Part shown: positions 4,331 through 64,000 of the stretch, piece by piece
How positions within the stretch are numbered: position 1 is the stretch's first letter
How the letters are laid out: every line of letters begins with the position of its first letter
DNA from: Diphasiastrum complanatum
Lineage: Eukaryota > Streptophyta > Lycopodiopsida > Lycopodiales > Lycopodiaceae
Direction of reading: 5' to 3'
Assembly (NCBI GenBank): GCA_029204225.1
Contig: CM055093.1
Coordinates: 27,687,566 to 27,751,565 of the forward strand
DNA length: 64,000 nucleotides
The notes under the pieces: model-generated
Databases searched by the model: none
What the model was told of the DNA's origin: nothing
The model's input: the letters and a program-made list of their open reading frames with translations, nothing else
Position numbers and translations under genes: made by a program

Positions 4331-4740
4331 AAGGGTTCACATACCTCTATGAAAAAACGTAAAAATCTTCATGATAGCGATTTTTGAAAAAGAATCATGA
4401 ATGACGATTCCATTTCTACACATTATGCACAAATTCTTTTTCCGTAGCAAAAAGAACAAGAGTTTATGCGTGATTTTCTAGCAAAAGCATCAAGTTAATC
4501 ACCATCACAAACAGGTACAGATGTCCAAAATTGCATTTAATATACTCAAAGTGTTCTTTACGAACTATATCCATATGCGTTATTGAATATTCTGTCATCA
4601 GAAGAATGAAAAACTCGTTTATCGAGTTTGTAATTCATTATCTGAGGTTTTAACATCGAAAGAAAGGGCATGTTAATATTCTATGCGATATGGTGTGCAC
4701 GAATGTATTTTTTTTTTCGTGATTTTACAGTTTCGACTAA

Positions 4741-5730
4741 TTAAAAAAGTGGACTACCTTTGACATATTCTGTCAGCGCTAAAGCCACAAGACCTACCAT
4801 AGCCGCTCGGCCATTCCACGTCTCCGCTTTGGATGAAAAGAAATCTCTTGCGATTTGCTTTCTGCCGAGATACCTTGGAAGAGTGGAATAAGCGACGCAG
4901 ACGTAAACAGAACTGCTGTGACGATAAACCATGAAAGCCCTCCGTTGTCTAACTGGCCCAGGAGACCTTGACCAGTAGCTATCTCTACTCCCAAGGCTGA
5001 TACGAATCCCAGCATGGCCAATCTCCCGTTTATTTTCTCTGGAGCAGGTCCGGAAAAGGCGAATATATCAGTGAAGTTGGTGCTCATCTGCAAGACAAGG
5101 GCAAAGTCCGGATTCGTTTCACCGAACATAAGTGAGAAATAGTCACGTACAAAGTGCATTCTAATAAAAATAGAAGAAATGAGTATAATTAACAAGCAGG
5201 GAAGTTTAATTTGAATAATATAGACTGTAGATCTATATAGATGCAATACCTTCTTAAGAGCAGCTGGGGTGGTAGAGGTTCTTCTTGATTCTGCATTATC
5301 CTAAAGGAGCATACAAACATGTTTAAGCTGGGTGAGATTTGACTGGCAGATCTAATATTACATGTGGACGACCTATTGTAGAATTTAAAAAAGAAACCTG
5401 AAGTTCACCTTGCAAATACATCGAAACGAATGACTACATCACTCGGAACATGGATGATGAAAATGCTGGAAGATCTTCTAGTAACCAGCTCAACAGATAA
5501 TTAATTATATCCAAAATTCAAGAACAAGAAATCTTTTCAGTTTTGAACTAAGAAAATATAGTTACCTTGGACATGCACGATAGACTAAGTCGAGGCAAGT
5601 TCCGATAACTTCCTAGAGAGGTTTTTGTGAGAGGAACTAGTTTTACGTGTTGCATCAAAGATCTACTGTTAACCTGCGTACTCTGCTGAGTTTTGCCATA
5701 CAGGGACGTTGGAAGGGTTGAAGCAGCCAT
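4741..5730 (-). pseudogene. ELIP: Early light-induced protein (ELIP), copy 1, frameshifted
   Basis: ELIPs are nuclear-encoded thylakoid proteins of the chlorophyll a/b-binding superfamily, thought to hold pigments and limit photo-oxidation under high light, cold or drying. Exons by alignment to copy 2 (33385-34460): exon 1 5566-5730 (55 codons, Ser-rich transit-peptide-like), exon 2 5250-5300 (17 codons), exon 3 from 5087; introns 5301-5565 and 5088-5249 have GT-AG ends. Exon 3 encodes helix I with EKINGRLAM and helix II, then a 2-bp insertion near 4844-4849 relative to copy 2 shifts the frame. The shifted frame stops at 4794 after about 169 residues in all. Helix III ([11 protein letters not shown]), needed for the three-helix fold, survives only in another frame ending at 4741. 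Exon 2 lacks about 20 codons present in copy 2. Probably a recent pseudogene, unless the 2 bp is an assembly error. Confidence 0.85.
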
Positions 5731-31290: not shown

Positions 31291-33384
31291 GAGTGTGAGA
31301 AAGTACAAATAAATTCATGTATGAGAAAGCAAACTACTCGAGTTAGAGAGAGAATGGCAATTGAAGCTTAAAATTACAAAATCCAAATTAACAAGAACAT
31401 AGTCTCAATGCTTGATTCATCATCAAAAGTTGTGAGAGATCCCACATACATATATAGAAGAGTTACTAGCTCGAGGTAAATCAAGCATGCAACCTTATTT
31501 CTCCACCTCTAAAAGTGGTTACTACCAAAATATTAACATCTATCAGTCCACCTACTCTTACCAACTTTATACATGTGTCATATTTTAAACTATAATTGTA
31601 CAAATCATCATTCATGTGCCAATACAAGTTTTAATTTGCTTTGCATGTCACTTTTGGCAAACTTAGATATTATACATGTGTAGCAGCTCGAGATTTTAGT
31701 AGCTCAAATTTAACCATGTCATGATTTAACTTTACATGCATGATGTAAATTTCATCAAACCCCAAAAGTTAAGATGATGGGATTTTTATTTTCAACAAAA
31801 AGTTTGAAGAGACAATATTTATTCGACATACATACTTGATACATTTGGTACTTTTGTTCTTTTAATACAAATAATGAAAATATGTACTGACCGTTATGAG
31901 CACAATGCAATGCTAACCATAAATTTTCTACCTTATTGAAAGAAGTTTATTCATTTTCCAATTTATCTATCTAAAAAATTGTCATAAGATATTTTTGAGA
32001 TATTTGTTTTAAAATACATCATAAGTTTCAAACCTATATATACCATTTGAGAACTAGCTTTGAACATATTGTCTACTTTAGCCTATATCTATGCATGTGT
32101 GTGTGTGTGCGTGCGCGATTTTTTTCTTGAATTAGACCCACATGTGGGAAGGGTTTGAACTTGCATGTTCAATTTCACACGGGCAACTGTTTACCACTAT
32201 ACCACACAAGGGGAGATTGTGTGTATGTAACATTGTGTGAGTAAAGATATGAATAGATTTATAGTACTTAGTTATCAACTATTTATAATACAATCAATCC
32301 TCACCATATTATTAAATTTCTGTTAAAATTAGGTTAAAGTGTTAACATATTTTACTTTTGTAGATGGGAAACATGTCTTCTTCATTTATCATATTTCATT
32401 TATTGTTTGTTGAAAAAATTTGTATTTGTGCATAATGTTTTATTTTCAAAAGAAAGCTGTATAAGATCTACTTTTAAGTAAAGAAACATTTAATTGCCAT
32501 TTCATCATTCTTTTTGCATGCTTAACCTTTAAAGTGAAATTTACCTTGTGATTATTACTAGAGATTTTTTATTACTTCAACAAGTATAAAATATTATAGA
32601 GTGCAAAAAGAAAAGTAAATCTTCACTCTTGTCCATTTCTCAAAGGATGGAAATTATTCGTTACAACAAATTTTAGATAGCTTTTATGGACAATTGAATA
32701 TTTACCGCTAGATTTCAAGTTTCATTTTCTACAATAAGCATCTAGCCATCTTCTGTATGAAGAATGGATTGGTGGCCTTAGCATTATTAATTGAATAAGA
32801 TTTAAATTGGCAGAATTATAAAGATCCTCTTAAAATTTGTTGTGACTTGCATGGTTAAGAGAAAATATTTTAGGAGAATTGGCTATGGCCTAATAATACT
32901 TATTTTATAATTAAATAAGGCAGTTGTCTTGGAACTTTTTAACCTTATACAATTTTGCCATTTTTAAAAGTCTAGATACTGACTTTTCAACTCTGATAAT
33001 CACCTAAAAAGACTGGAAAAGTCTGTAAGAAAATGGCAAAACTAAAAAGTGGAAGAAGGGTTAAAACAATGATGCACATTTCAACTATTTGTTGCAGCAA
33101 AAGACAGATATCACGAAGAAAATCTCGTCTAACTTTTCGCATAAGAATTGATAACTAAAACGGCCACTACAAAAAAATACATTTTCCATATCATTTGTTC
33201 AAAGTGAAGTACAGGCAATATTCAGATGTTTTGTTCTCTCATCAGGAGACTACAATATTTGTGTACCGATGTTGTGCTTCATTAGCAGAACGACGAAGTT
33301 CCAAGCATATTACAATCATATTCTACAGTATTCGTGAACAGGTTTCTTTAAAATAAATATGTATCATTTTACAGTATCGACTCA
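31291..33384. other. Non-coding stretch downstream of ELIP copy 2
   Basis: No gene seen on either strand. It contains a TG microsatellite (about 32095-32113) and the SINE-like tRNA unit at 32120-32215. The 3' flank of ELIP copy 2 (33340-33384) shares TTTTACAGT-TCGACT with the flank of copy 1. Confidence 0.5.
32120..32215 (-). mobile_element. tRNA-derived SINE-like unit 2
   Basis: On the minus strand there is a perfect RNA polymerase III A box (TGGTATAGTGG, 32194-32204) and a B-box-like AGTTCAAACCC about 35 bp downstream (about 32153-32164), then A-rich sequence (TTCAAGAAAAAAATCG) and a CA repeat. This is the usual plan of a plant tRNA-derived SINE head. No complete cloverleaf with a clear anticodon was found, so a functional tRNA is unlikely. 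Confidence 0.6.
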
Positions 33385-34460
33385 TCAAAAAAGTGGACTT
33401 CCTTTGACATATTCTGTCAATGCTAGAGCCACAAGACCTACCATGGCCGCTCGACCATTCCACGTCTCCGCTTTAGATGAAAAGAAATTTTGCGATTTAC
33501 TTTCTACTGAGACACCTTGGAAGAGTGGAATGAGCGATGCAGACGTAAACACAACTGCTGTGATGATAAACCATGAAAGCCCTCCGTTGTCTAACTGGCC
33601 CAGCAGACTTTGACCAGTAGCAACTTCTACCCCCAAAGCTGATACAAATCCTATCATGGCCAATCTCCCATTGATTTTCTCTGGTGCAGGTCCAGAAAAG
33701 GCAAATATATCACTAAAGTTGGTACTCACCTGTCATACAAAGGCAGATAAACATAAGGTTTATTTCACGCAACTCAGCGAGAAGTGAAAAGGCACAAATG
33801 TCTAATCCCAACAGTTACGTACAGATTCTATCGAGAACGTTTCCATCGAACAAAGTGACAGTAAAATTGAGATACAACTTCACCCTGTATAATATAGATC
33901 GCAATATTTTCACTACCTTCTTAGGAGCGGCTGGGCTGGTAGGGGTGGGTGTCGCAGCGATAGGAGATGTCGTAGAGGTACTTTTAGGTTTCGGGACGTC
34001 GTCAGTGCTTCCTGAATCTGGATTATCCTGAAAGACCATACAAACATCTCTTAAATCTCTGTGAGATCCGACTGAAAAATCGGAAATCTGTGGGTTATCT
34101 ACTGTCAAATTTATACACAACAAGCCAATGACTTAAAACAAAGAAAACTGCACTTAAATCTGCAAAATATATTAAAACGTACGACCAATCAGCGCCAATA
34201 TGAATATGCTGGGAAGATCTTCCAATATTTCAGCCTAAAAGCTTGTCCAAAAAGCAAGATCAAGAAATAATCAAGAATTTCGTTACCTGCGACATGCACG
34301 AGATGTTAAGTCGAGAAAAGCTCCGATGATTTCTTAGATAGGTGCTCGTTACGCCGAAACGAGGGCATGACTTTGCGTTTTGCATCAACGATCTACTATA
34401 AACCTGCATATTCTGCTGAGACTTGGAACATAGAGCCGATTGGAAGGTTAAAGCAGCCAT
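33385..34460 (-). CDS. ELIP: Early light-induced protein (ELIP), copy 2, intact
   Basis: Three exons with GT-AG introns in phase 0: exon 1 34287-34460 (58 codons), exon 2 33917-34027 (37 codons), exon 3 33385-33729 (114 codons plus TGA); 209 residues, a normal ELIP length. Residues 1 to about 58 are Ser-rich and poor in acidic residues, as in chloroplast transit peptides. Exon 2 is a Pro/Thr/Ser-rich linker ([12 protein letters not shown]). Exon 3 holds three membrane helices: I at about 112-136 with [11 protein letters not shown] at about 146-167, III at about 183-205 with ETWNGRAAM. The E-N-R motifs of I and III are the pigment- and salt-bridge-forming signature of the chlorophyll a/b-binding fold. 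ELIPs accumulate in thylakoids under light, cold or desiccation stress and are thought to bind free pigment. The start is chosen because the frame runs straight into the transit-like sequence, as in copy 1. Confidence 0.93.
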
Positions 34461-42424: not shown

Positions 42425-42530
42425 ATGTGTTAGAGATCCATAAATCATAATATGGATGGACAGACTAGGATCTGAACCCAGGACCTCCCTCATTCCAGAT
42501 GGGATGCCTACCATTGAGCTATCCACCCTA
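42425..42530 (-). mobile_element. tRNA-derived SINE-like unit 1
   Basis: Minus strand: A box TAGCTCAATGGTAGG (42507-42521) and B box GGGTTCAGATCC (42468-42479). The T arm CTGGG-TTCAGAT-CCTAG folds with five pairs (one wobble). GGTGGA upstream and TCCATCC downstream can form an acceptor-like stem, but spacing and anticodon arm are irregular, so a functional tRNA is unlikely. It sits at the broken gag end of D2, followed by the short inverted repeat ATCCATA...TATGGAT. Confidence 0.65.
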
Positions 42531-46379: not shown

Positions 46380-46940
46380 GTGGTGGGAGGCCGTACTTTC
46401 ACACGTGTGAAGCCTTCTTCAAGGATTTGGGCCATTTAGTGAGGTTCAAGCATAGATTTTTGATGGATTTTGATGGTTCAACTTGTGCTAATCTTATGAA
46501 ATCATAATCTATTGTTTCCCTCATCATTTCAGGTGTTTTAGGATCCTTATTTGCTGTAATTTTTACATGGTATCAGAGCCTAAAGGCTGAAATGAGCTAA
46601 ATCCTTGGTTTTCATTCAATTTGATCACAATTTTTTATCTAAATCTTGTGTAGATTGGATCTTAGCATCTAGTATTGATTCTAGAACTCAAAGTGCTTAT
46701 TTCACTTTCTTTTGTTCAAAGTGAATATAATTCCACTCTTTACATTAAGTTTGATGATGTTGGTATTGTACTTTTACTCATTTATGTAGATGACATCATC
46801 ATTAGTGGAAATAGTGTTGATGGTATTGAAAGATCTATCCTTAGAGTTCAAGATGGTAGATCTAGGGTGTCTTCACTTCATCTTAGGCATAGAAGTACTT
46901 AGAGGGTCTGATTTTATCTTTATAAGTCAAGTAAACTATG
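46380..46940 (+). mobile_element. Deleted copia copy of family C (LTR end, primer site, RT scrap)
   Basis: 46385-46568 matches the end of the element C LTR. TGGTATCAGAGCC follows, with GCTGAAATGAGCTAAATCC as in C. After about 100 bp the sequence jumps to the RT catalytic region (LLLIYVDDIIISGNSVDG), then shifts frame and ends near 46940. A large internal deletion removed gag through most of RT. Confidence 0.8.
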
Positions 46941-49933: not shown

Positions 49934-50615
49934 TGTAAAAATTACAGCAAATAAGGATCCTAAAACACTTGAAATGATGAGGAAAACAATAGATTATGAT
50001 TTCATAAGATTAGCACAAGTTGAACCATCAAAATCCATCAAAAATCTATGCTTGAACCTCACTAAATGGCCCAAATCCTTGAAGAAGGCTTCACACGTGT
50101 GAAAGTACAGCCTCCCACAGTCTGAGTACTGTACACCAGACCTACATTCAATCCTATAATCATTAGTAAGCACAAGTACTCAAACAATTATGAACATAGA
50201 GAGCAATTGCACCATAATGAGAGAAAAAACATGAAATTGCTTGATTGATTTTGGTGAGATATCATCACCTATATATACATGATCCATCACGGTTTTGGGC
50301 AGGTATGAGTAGCCCTAAACTTATCCCTAATGCTAATTTTGGTGGATCTTTCATCCCTACCAAGTTAGGGTTGGAATCTTGGAGACCCCTCAACAATGCA
50401 AAAACTACCAAAAATAGCTCCTATTTTTTCTCCCTTGTATCTAAGCATAATTTGGAATCATTCCAAAGGTTCTAACACTTAGGTTTACTTGAGAACATCC
50501 TTATGAATGGAATCCTATGCTATTTGGCACGTGTGACAAGCCACATCATGACCATCTAACTATTTACAAGTCATATGACCAAAACTAGTCAAGCTAGAAT
50601 TGTGAATTTTTAACA
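49934..50615 (-). mobile_element. 3' LTR of copia element C
   Basis: 682 bp, TGTAAAAATTACAG to TTTTTAACA on the plus strand, directly followed by CTCCTCCTCACT, which is the minus-strand polypurine tract. I count about 17 differences from the partner LTR (54240-54921), roughly 2.5 percent. It carries TTCACACGTGTGAA. Confidence 0.92.
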
Positions 50616-53600
50616 CTCCTCCTCACTATCTAGCTTGGTTCAATCATTGCTTTACTAATCACTCCAAGTGATGATCTGAACTTCATAAAAGGTGTCTTTT
50701 GAAGTGGTTTAGTAAGTAGATCAGCTACACATTCATTGCTTGGAACATGCTCCAAAGCAATCACCTTGGCTTGCACCATTTCTCTCACAAAGTGATGGCA
50801 TATCTCAATGTGCTTAGATCTTGCATGGAAGATTGGGTTAGATGCAAGGTGTTGGGCTGATATATTGTCATTGTAGATGATTGGTGCCTCCTCTGAATCC
50901 ATGATCTTTAGTTCCACCAATAATCTCTTGATCCAAAGTACCTCCTTTGTAGTGGTTGTCAAAGCTTTGTACTCAGCCTCGGTTGAAGATAGAGATATAG
51001 TTTCTTGCTTTTTTGAAAGCCATGAAACCACACGTTCTCCTATGAAAGTTGAATAGGCACTTGTTGATTTCCTATCCCTCTTGTCCCCTGCAAAATCTGA
51101 ATCACTAAATGCATGAAGGTTAATCACATCTCCTCTATATAGAATCCCAAAATCCAATGTACCCGAGATGTATCTTAGAATCCTCTTAGCCTTTTTCCAA
51201 TGGATATTCAATGGCTTTTGCATGGATTGGCTAAAGCTAAGATCTGGTCTAGTTATAGTGATCCACATTAAGGAACCTATAAGTTGCCTAAACAAAGTGA
51301 TGTCCATAAAGGATCTTTCATCATCTTCATTTGGCACTTTTACATCTTGCTCCATTGGTGTGTCAACCCTTTTGCATACTTCCATATTAAACTTCTTCAA
51401 AAGACTTTGAGCATAGTTTAATTGACTTATAAAGATAAAATCAGACCCTCTAAGTACTTCTATGCCTAAGATGAAGTGAAGACACCCTAGATCTACCATC
51501 TTGAACTCTAAGGATAGATCTATCTTGATTTTTACAATACCATCAACACTATTTCCACTAATGATGATGTCATCTACATAAATGAGTAAAAGTACAATAC
51601 CAACATCATCAAACTTAATGTAAAGAGTGGGATCATATTCACTTTGAAAAAAGAAAGTGAAATAAGATAGCAATGTAGTCTTGAATTCCAAGATCTCGAG
51701 GCTTGCTTCACGCCATAGATGCTTCTTTGGAGATGGCATACTTTGTTCTCCATTCCATGCTTGATGAACCCTTGTGGCTGCTCCATATAGATATCCTCTT
51801 CCAAAAAACCATTCAAGAAAGCATTAGAGACATCCATTTGACATAGAATCCATCCAAAATGTGATGCAAGTGCAATGATTAGCCTTATTGTGACCATCTT
51901 GGCCACGGGTGCAAAAGTTTGCTCATAGTCTATCCCTCTCTCTTGAGCATAACCTTTTGCAACTAATCTTGCTTTATGTTTGTTAACACTCCCATTTGCA
52001 TTCAACTTAAGCTTGAAGACCCACTTGCATCCTATTACATTCCTTTGAGGTCTCTCAACAAGCAACCAAGTTTCATTCTCAATCAAGGCATCATACTCAT
52101 CCAACATAGCTTTATATCATTCTTTGGAGTTCAATGCATCTTCAATATTAGATGGTTCTTCAAAACTAGATAAAGCATAAGAAGTGGATGAGATACCCTC
52201 AACTTGCTGTCCTTTTCCTTGATGGCTCCACTTTTGCCCTTGAAGATCTCCTTGGTGTGATAGGTGGGTTTGGTGCTTGCTCCTCCATGAGCTCCTCCTC
52301 AAAACCAAGATCTTGCTCCTCGGCCATCTTCTTCTTGATTGTTGGAGCACTTGAGCCTTCTTCAAGCATATGCATATGATGTTCATCAAAGATGACATCC
52401 CTTGAAACAACAAATTTGTTCAAGGATGGGAGATAGACTTTGTAGCCCTTGCTTGAGCTTGCATATCCAAGCATGATCCCTCTTGTGGAAGATGGATCCT
52501 CCTTGGTTCTTGTTTCCAATGGCACATGCACATAACATATATACCCAAAAACTTTCAAGTGATTAAGATTGGGTTTCTTTCCATACAACATCTCATAAGG
52601 AGTTTTGCCTTCAATTGCTTTGCAAGACACCCTATTCATCAAGTAGTTTGCACATACAAGAGACTCACCCCAAAAGGATTTGGGCAAACAAGCATCTAAT
52701 CTTAAAGCCTTATAACATTCACATAATGTTCTATTCCTTCTTTCAGCAACTCCATTTTGTTGAGGAGTGTAAGGACAAGAAGTCTCTTTCTTGATCCCTT
52801 CCTCCTCACAAAAGGCCTTGAACTCATTGGAGATGAATTCTCCACCATTGTCACTTCTAAGAATCTTGATGCTATGATTATGATGCTTTTCCACAAACAA
52901 CTTGAACTTTACAAAAGTATCAAATACTTGAGACTTGAAGGAAAGTAAGAACACCCAACAATATCTTGAGTAGTCATCAATGAAGGTTAAAAACATGGAT
53001 GAACCTCCATTAGATTTGGTGCTAGCAATGTGCACATCCGAGTGTATGAGTTCAAGAGGATGAGATGACTTTGTGATGGAGTTAGGAAACACCTTCTTAT
53101 GTGCCTTGGATAAGGCACAAGCTTCACAAACCTTGTCTTCCTTCCCAATAGACCTTGGTAGGCCTAAAGCATACTCCTCCTTGATCATAGCCTCCATGGA
53201 ACCCGAGTTGACATGTCCAAGTCTTTTGTGCCATAAAGTAAAGGTAGATATCTTGCCCTTCTCGGCCAACATGACAACATTAGTATCCACAAATGCATCC
53301 AACTTATAAAGTTTGCCAAGTCTAGTGCCCTTAGCCACTATCTTACCCTTCTTCTTGATGAAACATTCATTTGAAGCAAAGTCAACATTGAAACCATTGT
53401 CTACCATTTGGCCAACACTTAGTAGATTCTTTGTTATTGTAGGAATGTACAAAACACCTTCTATGTTGATCTTTTTGGAAGATCCTAAGCAAAGGGGAAT
53501 TCTACCAACTCCTTCAATATTACAAGCTTCATCATTTGTTGTATAGATAGACTTTACAGGTCCATCTTAAGATAAGAGAGAAGAGAAAAACTCCCTTTTA

Positions 53601-54239: not shown

Positions 54240-54921
54240 TGTAAAAATTACAGCAAATAAGGATCCTAAAACACTTGAAATTATGAGAGAAACAATAGAT
54301 TATGATTTCATAAGATTAGCACAAGTTGAACCATCAAAATCCATCAAAAATCTATGCTTGAACCTCACTAAATGGCCCAAATCCTTGAAGAAGGCTTCAC
54401 ACATGTGAAAGTACGGCCTCCCACAGTCTGAGTACTATACACCAGACCTACATTCAATCCTATAATCATTAGTAATCACAAGTACTCAAACAATTATGAA
54501 CATAGAGAGCAATTGCACCATTATGAGAGAAAAAACATGAAATTGCTTGATTGATTTTGGTGAGATATCATGACCTATATATACATGATCCATCACAGTT
54601 TTGGGCAGGTATGAGTAGCCCTAAAGTTATCCCTAATGCTAATTTTGGTGGATCTTTCATCCCTACCAAGTTAGGGTTGGAATCTTGGAGATCCCTCAAC
54701 AATGCAAAAACTACCAAAAATAGCTCCTATTTATTCTCCCTTGTATCTAAGCATAATTTGGACTCATTCCAAAGGTTCTAACACTTAGGTCTACTTGAGA
54801 ACATCCTTATGAATGGAATCCTATGATATTTGGCACGTGTGACAAGCCACATCATGACCATCTAACTATTTACAAGTCATATGACCAAAACTAGTCAAGC
54901 TAGAATTGTGAATTTTTAACA
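54240..54921 (-). mobile_element. 5' LTR of copia element C
   Basis: 682 bp, same length and ends as 49934-50615. The right flank is CTGAT versus CAGAT on the left, a 5-bp target duplication with one change. The G-box palindrome of the partner is here CACACATGTGAA. Confidence 0.92.
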
Positions 54922-55340
54922 CTGATGTTAATACTCAGTTGCATCATCATGAAGAATCCTTCAAGATGACTGAACCAGAAGCGCCACAAATAGAGCTACT
55001 CATGAATATTCTGTCTAGTAAGATGAATATTACATTGGGAGAATTTTTGAAGTTGGTGCCGAAAGCAAAAGAAGTATTAGCATAGAAGTTAACTTAGAGC
55101 GAACCAGAAGCCCATCAAGGACCAATTTTTTGTGCTAGATTTGAATAATCTAATGAAGTACTCCATGTCAGGGCGGCCTGAGAAAGTGAGCAAAAAAACA
55201 TCACTTTGCTGATACAACATAGACAATTTTCTAAAAAAACAGCTGTAATACACGGAGGTTCAAGAGTTAACCTGATTTCAACAAAGCTATGTGCAAAATG
55301 GGGCCTTAAAAGAATTAAGCCTGCGACAAGGCAACGCTAA
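54922..55340 (+). pseudogene. Ty3/gypsy gag-protease remnant
   Basis: Continues the gag begun before element C (EPEAPQIELLMNILSSKMN, then stops). Near 55245-55330 a retropepsin-like stretch reads AVIHGGSRVNLISTKLCAKW, where gypsy proteases usually have a D-GG/S-VN signature; the catalytic Asp appears replaced by His. The coding ends at about 55335. Confidence 0.55.
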
Positions 55341-57289: not shown

Positions 57290-58440
57290 TTTCAAAAAGT
57301 TCATTTCGGATAAATTTGATCATGTACTTACAATGGACTGCAACATAATTAGAAGTATGTACCTCAAAAAATTATTAGAAAAAGGACTTAATCATATTAT
57401 GTTGCAACATACGTGTATTTATAGTGTGGCTAATGAACTTTATGATGGTTGAATTAAACTTATGAAGCTTTTACCTGAATGTGCAATGATAGACGATGAT
57501 ACTGTTTTGAAACATGTCGAGCTATGTAGACTTGCCGCTATTGACTTATTAAAAAGAAAAAAATGGATTCAAGAGAATATTGTTAGTTTACTGGAAAACG
57601 ATAGATGCCAATAATGAATGACAATGGTTAACTAACATTTATACGTCCATGGCATAGACAAAGCGCAACATAATCCATGTTTCATTTGTATTAATCTTGT
57701 CAGAACACTAGCGATTAAGAGGCTTGATAGTCAAGATTTTGAACCCTTTCCTAACAGATCAAATAATTTTGTTCATCACTCGTTAGAGCATATAAGGGAC
57801 ACTTTGGGAAAAAGAATACCAGAAGAGTTCATATATTCAAAAGAACTTTCCTACCTCTTATGCACTTTTAAAGCTCATAAAAACTCTTTCAGATGGATCA
57901 CAAATGCCCATGAATGCCATTTTTTGGACTTGCTAGATTCATGACAGGGGTTTTGGACATGCTGCATCCTTTCATTATAAAAGGTGCAGGCCTTAAGGTT
58001 GAAAAAACAAAAAAGCTACCTAAATGGGGATACAGCTTTAATTTGGCAATGTGAATCCTTCATTGACTTCTATCTAAATATACCAAAGAAGATTTACAGT
58101 ATGGAAGCCATGGATATTTCCAAATGTTATGAAAATATACCTCTGGATGGACCGGATGGACTGAAGACGGCTATAAGAAAACTAATCCTATTTGCCTTCA
58201 AATTCACAAAAGGTAAAACCCTCATTACAGGAGTTCTCAAACTTCAAAGGGTCGTTTGTTACAGGTTTTTTCCCTCGCTTTTTATGTCCATGTGGCCCAA
58301 TCGGTTCTTGACATAGTGGCTTCTATGTCACATAACTTGCCTGATCTGGAAAACACAATTCATGTTTGGGCAAATTTGAATTTCCGGTTCGGTAGATTGG
58401 AAGCATACTATTGGCTGGCATGCGCGGCGACTGGTTGACT
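57290..58440 (+). pseudogene. Penelope-like reverse transcriptase remnant
   Basis: An upstream stretch contains HVELCRLAAIDLLKRKKW (about 57520). The frame 57657-57947 has DKAQHNPCFICINLV and LCTFKAHKNSFRWITNAHE, matching in order the D-K-N-F/C and P-K-H-K-RPI positions before the RT palm in Penelope-like enzymes. The frame 57984-58316 adds the catalytic-Asp region AMDISKCYENIPLDGPDG, of the D-CY-IP type shared by Penelope-like RTs and telomerase. Stops lie between the pieces and the second Asp motif is not recognisable. Penelope-like elements integrate by target-primed copying and are known to keep introns. Family assignment rests on motif order by eye. Confidence 0.55.
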
Positions 58441-60503: not shown

Positions 60504-61240
60504 CTTTTGCATCAACAATCTCCAGGTGGCTATTTACAGTGGCCCCATCTGACCTTGGCAAAAATGACAACATTTTGTTGTACATCACGTCCATTTCGGC
60601 ATGGGTATAGCTCAAGGAACTCATCTTTAAACAGATGGGATTAATGATCCCATATGAATCTTCCCTAAGGGAGGCATACTCCAATGCTTACTACAAACAA
60701 GACATAATTAGTTAAACTGAAGGAATTACAATACCTATAAAAAATATTACTTGAATATATTCTATGTACTCACTTACTTTTGGTAGTATGGAATAATAAA
60801 GACTTTGGTCTCTGAAGTTGTATGGAGAAGATACTTCGTCGCCTGAGTTGGACTATGAAGGCTGTGTGCAAAAAAGGACAGCACAACCCCAATGTCCTTA
60901 CTATCATTGCATTTACATCTATTTACAAAATACATCAAACCAGTCTCCACAACTGGATTTGATATATATGTTGTCTTCTCTATTAGGGCATCACAAAAGT
61001 CTTTATTTATGTGATTTACATAATTAATTGAACTTAGACAAAAAGAAAATTGACCTCCTAACTTATAATCTCTTTGGCAACATACTCATCAAAAACTATA
61101 TACCTCTCAGAATCCAAAAATGAACCTTTCGGATCAACATGAAATCTTACACAAAGATCCTTATAAAAATCACCTACTAAACTCTTATCTAGATCCGATA
61201 CTATTTTATCTACAGTGTAGAGGTCATATCCTCGTTATTG
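60504..61240 (-). pseudogene. Exons of a possible Ulp1-like (C48) protease, downstream of the H3-like ORF
   Basis: First piece about 61240-61063: YDLYTVDKIVSDLDKSLVGD to FDEYVAKEIIS. Second piece about 61019-60778: FCDALIEKTTYISNPVVETG, then KVFIIPYYQ, ending at a clean GTAAGT donor. After an 86-bp intron ending TTTGTAG the frame can give KHWSMPPLGKIHMGSL. The IPY...KHWSM...L-GKI pattern resembles the His-Trp segment of Ulp1/SUMO-protease domains often carried by plant mobile elements. An alternative frame reads LREDSYGIINPICLKMSS to EIVDAK and ends at another GTAAGT (about 60504). The catalytic Cys was not found. Assignment is tentative. Confidence 0.3.
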
Positions 61241-61434
61241 TGGGATGGAATGGAGGGAATGGAGAAGGAACTACTTGAATAGCTAGGGGTGGTGGGAGGA
61301 GAAGAACGCCTTGCAGACTGGTGTGATGGTCCAACCAAAGGATGAGAGATATGAGAGGGGGATGGTGATTCGCTGCCACTGAGTACTACCCTTTGCCTGG
61401 CAGGCCTGGTGGGCTTGGTCTGCTTTCTCTTTCT

Positions 61435-61869
61435 TCATTGAGGAATAGGCCCTCTCTCTGTAGGTGGTGGTCTAGAGGTGAAGCCACTCTTGAAAACCTG
61501 ATCGTATGTACTCCTCAGCCTCATGACAAGATGCATGTCCTGAGACATGAGAGTAACTCTCTTGGCGTGCACTGTGCAAAGCGTAGAGTCCTCATTAAAT
61601 TTAGCTTGAAAGTCCTCATAGGTAGTATGGAGGGCTTCCAGGGCTGTTATGTTCCAGCGAACATCATGTGAGAGTGACATTGTCACTAATCCCACAGACC
61701 TGTAGAACAGAGCATGTGAAATCAGGAGATTAGTTGTTCTCCTGATATTCCTTAGCCATGGTCTTCTCGGCCGACCTACTCTCCTACCAGTGCCCACTGC
61801 CCTTCCTACAGGAGGATGAGTAGGCGAGGCAAATGTGGAAAGACGTGTTGTCTGCTTGGTATGGGCCAT
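61435..61869 (-). CDS. Divergent histone H3-like protein (possibly CENH3-like)
   Basis: 144 residues, no intron needed. The N-terminus MAHTKQTTRLST mirrors the H3 tail, keeping the Lys-4 position and replacing Lys-9 by Leu. The tail is short, Pro/Gly/Arg-rich (to about residue 37). From LRNIRR (39-44) to RLR (117-119) it aligns with the H3 histone fold; after LLI it is gap-free with H3 for over 70 residues, including DVRW (69-72), EALHTTYEDF, and the hallmark LCTVHAKRVTLMSQDMHL (97-114). RW at the loop before helix 2 recalls centromeric H3, but loop 1 lacks the usual CENH3 extra residue. A 25-residue C-terminal extension ends at TGA; the same frame then stays open another about 70 codons (RKRKQTKP, Ser/Pro-rich). 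Canonical H3 is far more conserved, so this is a fast-evolving variant, a captured copy or a decaying gene. Confidence 0.65.
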   Translation of the reverse strand: MAHTKQTTRLSTFASPTHPPVGRAVGTGRRVGRPRRPWLRNIRRTTNLLISHALFYRSVGLVTMSLSHDVRWNITALEALHTTYEDFQAKFNEDSTLCTVHAKRVTLMSQDMHLVMRLRSTYDQVFKSGFTSRPPPTERGPIPQ

Positions 61870-62110
61870 TTCAAGCTAAGGTATCGTTATGACGTGCCAA
61901 ACAGAAAGAACAATGGATATCGGAGAGGGGAGGTGTGTGATGGCGATATGAGAGATGGCGTATAGCTGCGACGTGTGGAGGGGGAAGCTGTATGGGTATC
62001 TGACTGACTGGGCGCATGGTAGCAATATGCGGATAGCGAGGAGCGCAAGGAAATCTGAGGAGCGCTAGGAAACGAAAAAATTCGAAACAAAAATATGAGT
62101 CAAAAATGTT

Positions 62111-62478
62111 CTTTTATACCTACTGAACATCCCATCATTGTCACACGTGTGATGTGACACTTTCAATCCCCGCGCATGTGGTTACATGTGTCATCATATG
62201 GACTAGTCACGTGTTAGGACATCACTGGTCCATACAATCATACGGCTGGCACGCAAGTGCAAGGACACGTGTCATGATATGGGCCATTCATGCGTCACAT
62301 GATGACTGGTCTGTATGATCATATAGTGGCATGCACGTGTGAGGACATGTGTCAAGATCTGGAGCATACACGTGTCATGCAATGATTTGGTCGTCGTTTC
62401 CACACGTGTGGCAATTTTGATCGCACATTTTAGAAACATGTGTATGGTTCAGATCCTTTGAATTAGAGTATATATAAG
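62111..62478. promoter_or_regulatory. Divergent promoter with 80-bp G-box tandem repeats
   Basis: Minus-strand TATAAAAG (62111-62118) lies about 242 bp upstream of the H3-like ATG, and the intervening leader is CT-rich. Plus-strand TATATATAAG (62469-62478) points the other way. Between them three tandem units begin at 62184, 62265 and 62345 (80-81 bp apart), each starting ACAYGTGTCA and holding a second ACGTG/ATGCG site about 30 bp on; CACACGTGTG also occurs at 62141 and 62391. G-boxes bind bZIP and bHLH factors. Whatever the plus-strand promoter served has been replaced from about 62560 by copia sequence. Confidence 0.55.
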
Positions 62479-62559
62479 AGGGTCATTTTCGGAATTCAGT
62501 TTCGCATATCGAGTCCAGCAAACCGACCTGCTCCAAATCCAAAACATACTATATCGCTA

Positions 62560-63637
62560 CCTCCCTCATAGTCCCTTTCAATTTGCAAGCTGAGGTAACA
62601 CCTGACTTCTCCCAGATTTACGATCTCAAAATGTTTCGAGATGTCTTCCTTCACTTTAGCAATTAGTTGCTCACTCTTGCAAAGTATCAGAGTGTCATCC
62701 ACATACATAGCCACAATGATGATTTGCCCATCTGTAACTCTGACATACACATTGGAATCAGCCAACAGTGGCTTGAATCACAATGATTTCAGGGCTTGAT
62801 CCTTCCTCTTGTACCATTGTCGAGCTGACTATTTCAGACCATAAATACTTCTATGCATTTTGCATTCATAATCAGGAAGTGAATTCGAGACATATCTCGG
62901 GGGTTGATCCATGTATACCTCCTCGTCTAACTCATCATGCAAGAAGGCTATCTTCTCATCCACAATGTGGATCCTGAGGTCATAAGTTGTTGCATATGCA
63001 AATAACAGTCGTAGGGACAAATGTTTGACAACAGGAGAGAAGGTTTCAGAGTAGTCAATACCATGTCTTTGAAAAAATCCCTTCGCTACTAGTCTTGCCT
63101 TGTATTTTGAGACATTCCCATCCGGTCCATACTTGAGCTTGAAAACCCATTTGCATTTGACAGTCTTGCGCTTATGTGGTAATGGCTGCAACGTCCATAC
63201 CTGGTTCTTCCTCATGGACTCCATCTCTTCATTCATGGCTTGGATCCATTTGTCCTTCTCTGGACATTCGATTGCTTCCTCGAAAGTCTGTGGTTCACCA
63301 CTGAATCCACAAAACTCTTCTGATGTAGAAGCAGAGCTGTCTGGCACGTATCTTGATGGCGCTCTTCGTGGTCTTGTCGACCTTCTAGGAGATCCTCTTG
63401 GGACAACAATGCCTTTGTCTTTGTCTGCACAACTAGGTTCAAAACCATCTTGGTTTATAGGAACTATAGCAGTAGGCTGCCTCTCAAATCTTTCGTCTTT
63501 AGATTCGTCACTCAAATGAGAAGCAACTCAAAACTCTTCGTTTTCATTTTTGTCTTTTGCTCCCTCTGTCATTGGCGGCAGGTCATAGTACTGGCTCTCT
63601 AGAACTTCATAGCTGACAGGATCGTCATTGGCCATTG
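62560..63637 (-). pseudogene. Copia D4: reverse transcriptase fragment
   Basis: Family D RT, the least broken copy in the window: frame 62829-63515 reads KDKWIQAMNEEMESMRKNQV, CKWVFKLKYGPDGNVSKYKA, MHRSIYGLK then TAG for CAG. The next frame (62560-62765) has the intact box MYVDDTLILCKSEQ and EIVNLGEVRCYLSLQ. It is cut at about 62560 inside RT and at about 63637 in the integrase-RT linker (AMANDDPVS). No LTR joins it directly in the proper place. Confidence 0.88.
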
Positions 63638-63880
63638 TCCATAGATCAAGCTGTCATTGGTTGAGCTTCAGTCTTCGCTTGTAGGCCGCAAGTGTTGACC
63701 TGCAGTTTTCTTTGGTCATCTTCATTCGTTACCCAGATGTTGCGATTTGCGGTTTGCAGGTTGTCGGCCTTCGTTATCTTTGTTGTTTGTATGTGATGCA
63801 GTTGCAGTAGCGGCGGTTTGCGGTTCATAAGCTATTAATGCTTTGTGGGTAGAGACCTCAAGTTTCTTCAAACATTAGCT
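63638..63880 (-). mobile_element. LTR fragment related to family D
   Basis: On the minus strand it starts TGAAGAAACTTGAGG near 63879, like the family-D LTR start TGAAGAAACA, then ...ACAAAGCATTAATAGCT in parallel with ACAAAGCGTTGCTAGCT. It then has GCAAACCGC-type repeats (63750-63830) not seen in D1/D2, so it is a distinct subfamily. Cut at 63638. Confidence 0.5.
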
Positions 63881-64000
63881 AATCCAATGTTTGGCCTTCT
63901 TCTCTATATTCTAAAAGATATCTTATGAAAACAAAAAAATGTTGAAAATTAAGTCCACAGTTGTCTCCTTGGTGAATGACTAGTTTCTATTTCAAGATTC
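63881..64000. other. Window end, nothing recognised
   Basis: 120 bp of AT-rich sequence right of the LTR fragment. Confidence 0.5.

Follow-up and report, generated by a model that had tools for sequence, protein, structure and literature searches.

Few known proteins are as conserved as histone H3, so the locus described here raises the question of what an H3-like frame that departs so far from that pattern represents: a working paralogue, an offshoot of the centromeric lineage, a germ-line variant, the cargo of a mobile element or the remains of a dead gene. Among plant H3s, strong divergence is as a rule tolerated in CENH3 and certain germ-line variants alone (partly after the account in PMC3380720), and H3.1, H3.2 and H3.3 are given as mutually >95% alike in the switchgrass account (PMC4940616).

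In the ORF listing of the window (the whole 64-kb stretch of DNA that was analysed), an uninterrupted ORF of 144 codons runs on the minus strand from an ATG at 61869 to a TGA ending at 61435. The interval given in the earlier note, 61435..61869, proved exact; the strand, which had gone unstated, is minus, and read on the plus strand the same interval contains stops. The gene and the frames next to it are laid out as follows:

61435..61869, minus strand: H3-family histone-fold ORF without introns, ATG at 61869, TGA at 61437-61435
61756..61869, minus strand: N-terminal tail, residues 1-38, MAHTKQTTRLST and then R/P-rich, with K4 as its sole lysine
61510..61755, minus strand: histone fold, residues 39-120, equivalent to H3 51-132 without gaps, covering the end of alpha-N, alpha1, loop 1, alpha2, loop 2 and alpha3
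61438..61509, minus strand: C-terminal extension, 24 residues past the last aligned residue (H3 has only 3 more)
61213..61434, minus strand: 74 further open codons in frame past the TGA, Ser/Pro/Arg-rich
61871..62017, minus strand: upstream ORF of 48 aa, ending just 5' of the histone ATG

A stop-free stretch of 147 codons in a given frame arose in 0.175% of 4,000 simulations based on the local dinucleotide make-up. The chance of 74 open codons past the TGA was ~4% by our own arithmetic from the local stop rate; these codons may be former coding sequence of a gene that then lost its end, or may be open by chance. The start context of the histone ORF is AAATGG, and a codon-usage score trained on the transposable element (TE) ORFs of the window did not single out the histone frame.

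The encoded protein belongs to the H3 family by its histone fold. The Pfam Histone profile matched residues 42-119 with 51.7 bits (E = 1.3 × 10−13), above the gathering score of 26.4 bits that served as cut-off, and 82 columns aligned with H3 without a gap, as the earlier note had seen for the stretch from LLI to RLR. Identity was 29 of 82 columns to chain 7ux9_E, an H3.3 that is plant-type by its residues, and 10,000 shuffled queries reached a mean of 5.3 identities and a maximum of 14. Among the best 60 of 173 phmmer matches of the whole protein to PDB chains, H3.Y ranked first (54.6 bits, E = 1.5 × 10−13), followed at ~50 bits by the H3.3 chain 4h9s, H3mm15, Cnp1 and H3; with the fold alone as query (107 aa), 4h9s and two Cnp1 chains ranked first. 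The whole-protein alignment placed a 3-residue gap in alpha-N before LLI, where columns are ambiguous, and the local alignment passed the same region without a gap. A fold identity of 35% is not the near-identity of a canonical H3, and the strong divergence from plant H3 that had been claimed is borne out. So is the likeness of the tail, which opens with MAHTKQTTRLST where H3 has MARTKQTARKST, with K9 replaced by L, and which past its start is indeed cut down (~13 residues shorter in the ungapped alignment). A single-sequence AlphaFold model reached a pLDDT of 44 and was not used.

The protein has four lysines in total. By our own count, 2 of the 14 lysines of plant H3.3 are kept (K4 and K115) and 12 are gone, among them K9, K27, K36 and K79; residues 1-41 hold one lysine and eight arginines. 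R83, K115, R116 and T118, which in H3 contact DNA in nucleosome structures, are retained, as are H113, R116, D123, L126 and R129 of alpha2, loop 2 and alpha3, which hold two H3 molecules together in the nucleosome.

Neutral decay was simulated by mutating a plant-type H3.3 fold plus 62 random codons without selection. At a residual identity of 29/82, frames had accumulated a mean of 4.8-6.4 stops per 144 codons, ≤0.7% of the 600 runs per setting were stop-free, and the probability of no frameshift was ~2 × 10−7 when one indel was assumed for every 10 substitutions. Decay from a hand-entered CENH3 gave similar values (mean 4.2-5.3 stops, ≤0.7% stop-free, no-frameshift probability ~5 × 10−6). 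Nine H3-type references (six from the PDB, three hand-entered) share 26 invariant columns, of which 18 were kept (R52, T58, L61, F67, R69, V71, R83, A88, L92, E97, L109, H113, A114, R116, T118, D123, L126 and R129) and 8 were lost; by comparison, 11 of the 56 variable columns carry the H3.3 residue (Fisher P = 2 × 10−5). With CENH3 as the ancestor this contrast weakens (18/26 versus 17/56 or 18/56, P = 0.001-0.002). Where positions had changed, hydrophobic residues gave way to hydrophobic residues in 17 of 25 cases and polar to hydrophobic in 6 of 28 (P = 7 × 10−4). Because the frame is intact and invariant residues were selectively retained, we read the fold as one shaped by purifying selection, past or present; the codon-usage score, which did not single out the frame, speaks against this.

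To place the protein within the H3 family, residues were compared at columns where the references differ. Matches favored the centromeric histone chain Cnp1 over H3.3 by 8 to 1, and both Cse4 and the CENP-A chain (an H3/CENP-A chimera) by 6 to 3 (PDB sequences). No plant CENH3 chain appeared among the best 60 of 176 PDB matches, and the plant CENH3 rows are hand-entered sequences; of these, Arabidopsis (10 to 4) and rice (9 to 2) were closer than H3.3, and maize (3 to 4) counts against a CENH3 origin. Centromere-type residues in the fold include W84 and others. In a tree on 88 columns the query branch measured 1.56 substitutions per site. Likelihood placed it best beside Cnp1 under LG, and at the plant CENH3 stem under JTT only. 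The AU test rejected a position as sister to plant H3.3 (P = 0.018 under LG, 0.031 under JTT, 0.028 in a second run; P = 0.006 on the PDB rows), and the SH test did so with PDB rows only (P = 0.039) but not with all rows (P = 0.09-0.16). AU kept the H3 stem (P = 0.24-0.40), Cnp1 (P = 0.45-0.86) and all four CENH3 placements, and gave P = 0.046 and 0.065 for a placement with H3.Y.

Simulations were run for placements in plant H3, at the H3 stem, with Cnp1 and at four CENH3 positions. The observed summed excess was reached in 0/500 simulations inside plant H3, 1/500 at the H3 stem and 0/500 as sister to Cnp1, and in 13/500 at the CENH3 stem, 26/500 with monocot, 39/500 with rice and 46/500 with Arabidopsis CENH3. 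On a PDB-only score the counts were 7-16/500 for the CENH3 placements, 11-12/500 for Cnp1, 6-7/500 for the H3 stem and 0/500 for plant H3. The diagnostic residues agree best with the CENH3 placements, yet even these stay below 10%, and the PDB-only score is similar for Cnp1 and the H3 stem, so the model is strained everywhere. Descent inside plant H3 is thus unlikely, and an origin in the centromeric lineage is favored, though not proven.

CENH3 differs from H3 in a longer loop 1 and in a long variable tail that does not align to H3. In all six centromeric histones compared (three hand-entered) loop 1 was longer, with folds of 83-88 columns; the query fold has 82, as in H3. The start of its tail aligns to H3 (MAxTKQTxRxST) and the remainder does not. 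Plant CENH3 genes have 6 introns in the accounts for carrot, rice and switchgrass (PMC4041860, PMC4940616), and the query is a single uninterrupted ORF. With an H3-length loop 1 and an intronless gene, it was not filed as CENH3. The CENH3-type variant proposed in the earlier note thus survives in part: its residues have a centromeric flavor, but full membership is not supported, loop 1 being of H3 length and introns missing.

Around the gene, elements of a putative transcription unit and of a neighboring retroelement were found:

62111..62118, minus strand: TATAAAAG (TATA box), ~242 bp 5' of the ATG, one of 8 such sites in the 64 kb on both strands
62144..62408, minus strand: six G-box cores (CACGTG), 5' of the TATA box
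61002..61007, minus strand: AATAAA, a possible polyadenylation signal ~430 nt past the stop
62558..63640, minus strand: internal fragment of Copia pol (RVT_2), separate from the histone gene

A pyrimidine-rich stretch also lies upstream of the histone ORF on the minus strand. CACGTG occurs 16 times across the remaining 63.6 kb; the six upstream cores are not independent, since they lie mostly inside a degenerate tandem repeat of ~80 bp in 3 copies. The G-box repeat region also contains an imperfect palindrome of ~100 bp (62356-62455, centre CACACGTGTG) that is 67% self-complementary. A scan for bacterial-type promoters and terminators over 61.8-62.6 kb, a method unsuited to plants, found nothing above shuffles. 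A second TATA-like site, TATATATAAG, at 62466-62557 on the plus strand faces the Copia fragment and away from the histone gene, and may be a divergent promoter. The Copia fragment (1.08 kb) has counterparts at 24.3-27.1 and 38-40.6 kb to which it is ~86% identical; these continue beyond both edges of the fragment, where the similarity ends. At 61.2 kb GC content jumps from 0.29 to ~0.5; it remains at 0.47-0.52 as far as ~62.1 kb, and most of the sequence between there and 63.9 kb lies at 0.41-0.48. The frames 61210-61434, 61058-61234 and 60774-61085 were considered as possible parts of one long protein; they had no Pfam match, and there is a break in composition at ~61.2 kb.

The setting is TE-dense, with Copia-type ORFs abundant in the window. 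Pfam gave no match in 10 hand-chosen frames of the 48 listed open frames between 54.9 and 62.6 kb, nor in 2 more. Two plus-strand frames, 57636-57944 and 57981-58316, are open in the same reading frame and contain 'FKAHKNSFRWITNA' and 'MDISKCYENIPLDGPDGL'; they look like a reverse transcriptase, Penelope-like or of a related type, although Pfam had no match for either at E ≤ 1 and the first frame had no PDB match of significance (best E = 1.1). Direct repeats of 684 bp (49934-50617 and 54240-54923, 97.7% identical) flank Copia-type ORFs, probably as LTRs of a young element; an inverted piece of this element lies at 46383-46621. The sole Rfam match is a tRNA-Ser (GGA) at 42457-42528 on the minus strand, among retroelement ORFs. 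Elsewhere, a piece of a chlorophyll a/b-binding gene, which we take to be ELIP-like, occupies 4722-5246 on the minus strand (domain at 4794-5246), and a second copy of the region lies 28 kb off at 33366-33745 (88.7% identical), which suggests a local duplication. From this domain and the abundance of Copia-type ORFs we take the window to be land-plant DNA.

That a canonical H3 copy has decayed neutrally is extremely improbable. Such decay would account for the large divergence and for lysines lost throughout, and the earlier note had named just this outcome, a canonical H3 pseudogene in neutral decay, as one that would refute its reading; the decay simulations (stop-free in ≤0.7%, no frameshift at ~2 × 10−7) and the preferential retention of invariant residues (P = 2 × 10−5) contradict it, and the origin in plant H3 that it presupposes is rejected by the AU test and by simulation. 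A long-lived H3.1-type duplicate, freed from the constraint on H3 and with centromere-like residues acquired by convergence, perhaps a male-gamete (generative-cell) variant of the kind of lily gcH3, leH3 and gH3, is possible but on the unlikely side. The gene is intronless, as H3.1 is in the switchgrass account (PMC4940616), its tail starts TKQTxRxST, its loop 1 has H3 length and AU keeps the H3 stem; trees are reported to leave divergent generative-cell H3s 'not clearly separable' from cenH3s, and the lily gcH3 and leH3 to carry deletions in the fold (PMC3380720). Placement as sister to plant H3.3 nonetheless failed the AU test (P = 0.006-0.031, with no rejection by SH on all rows) and inside plant H3 none of the 500 simulations reached the observed excess.

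The surroundings bear on the remaining alternatives. Capture of a histone by a TE (hAT, MULE, Helitron or retroelement), of which this would be one of many copies and the 74 codons past the stop the remainder of a longer element protein, fits the TE-dense setting, the Copia pol fragment 690 bp upstream, the GC step from 0.29 to ~0.5 at 61.2 kb and the frame that stays open past the TGA, and it has a fungal precedent in an H3 reported within a hAT element (PMC6710886). We regard it as doubtful: the sequence is single-copy within the 64-kb window at the DNA and protein levels, 57-64 kb contains no repeats of ≥30 nt, and the hand-chosen neighboring frames were blank in Pfam. No terminal repeats stood out around the gene in a search bounded on the right by the window end at 64000; candidate pairs of terminal inverted repeats and target site duplications (TSDs) in five TSD classes were equalled by 16, 2, 40, 35 and 7 of 60 shuffles, and only the 5-bp class was unusual, which it no longer is after allowing for five tries. 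In a further reading, which overlaps with the preferred explanation, a divergent H3 or CENH3 paralogue has only lately become a pseudogene; selection would lie in the past, and the TGA and the lost C-terminal part would be marks of the gene's end. This reading draws on the open codons past the stop (chance ~4%), the 48-aa upstream ORF and the TE-rich surroundings, whereas the fold is without stop or frameshift and the TGA falls beyond its end; we judge it rather improbable, if still worth weighing.

The explanation we prefer, at a probability of about 0.5, is an intron-free, fast-evolving paralogue of the H3 family, likely from the CENH3-type side and probably arisen via a retrocopy. For most of its history the paralogue would have been translated, with its histone fold preserved by purifying selection. 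Descent from the centromeric (CENH3-type) side seems most likely, and an intronless gene of such descent would in turn point to a reverse-transcribed copy; against this, no poly-T run of ≥6 that would be the trace of a poly-A was found on the plus strand in the 0.8 kb downstream. As the named residues of alpha2, loop 2 and alpha3 and those in contact with DNA remain, the protein is predicted still to pair with H4 and a second molecule of H3 type. With 12 of 14 lysines gone and alpha-N shortened, the resulting nucleosome would be without the usual H3 marks (K9, K27, K36, K79) and would hold its DNA ends loosely. Expression may come from the gene's own putative TATA/G-box promoter. A fuller version, in which a CENH3-lineage retrocopy kept its frame, lost the loop-1 insertion and nearly all lysines and acquired its own promoter, to become a mark-blind H3 variant that is neither canonical H3 nor CENH3 and packages part of a plant genome, for instance a germ line or a chromosome region, is speculative and, taken whole, unlikely. 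An intact H3 so divergent and so poor in lysine would be a natural test of what a nucleosome needs, and even a relic would still document an additional H3 lineage.

A narrow search of titles and the starts of abstracts found no description of a like plant H3 or CENH3 gene, captured or degenerate, and five CENH3 peptide strings had no occurrence in full-text papers. No relatives were found in IMG/VR, GTDB genomes, plasmids or phages; by their description these collections are without plants, so this result is uninformative on plant relatives. Among known systems, the hAT-captured H3 of Pseudocercospora is likewise an H3-like sequence amid TE-rich DNA, but it is described as present in hundreds of copies inactivated by RIP (PMC6710886), whereas the present gene is intact and single-copy within the window, and no element ends were found around it. 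Truncated CENH3 pseudogenes are reported from cowpea (PMC7738545). The lily histones gcH3, leH3 and gH3 are divergent plant H3s too, compared here by their descriptions (PMC3380720, PMC8215658). Canonical plant H3.1 and H3.3 share with the query the ungapped fold and the TKQT tail start, and H3.1 its lack of introns; they differ in fold identity (29/82), in lysines (2/14 left) and in the AU-rejected plant-H3 origin. Cnp1, CENP-A and Cse4 share W84 and other non-H3 residues with it, and Cnp1 is identical at 36/82 columns, but their loop 1 is longer (fold lengths of 88, 84 and 85 versus 82). Compared with plant CENH3, the hand-entered Arabidopsis HTR12 shares N59, A65, T75, L78, W84, L89, D98, S107, L119 and L130 with the query against H3.3, and identity to the hand-entered CENH3 rows was 35/82 for Arabidopsis, 36/82 for rice and 28/82 for maize, versus 29/82 for H3.3. 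Plant CENH3 has 1-2 extra loop-1 residues and an RPW-type end, both missing from the query, which is also unlike it in being intronless and in its short, H3-like tail start. If the gene does derive from CENH3 and has done without the loop-1 insertion, it would help to part the folding from the targeting residues of the centromeric nucleosome.
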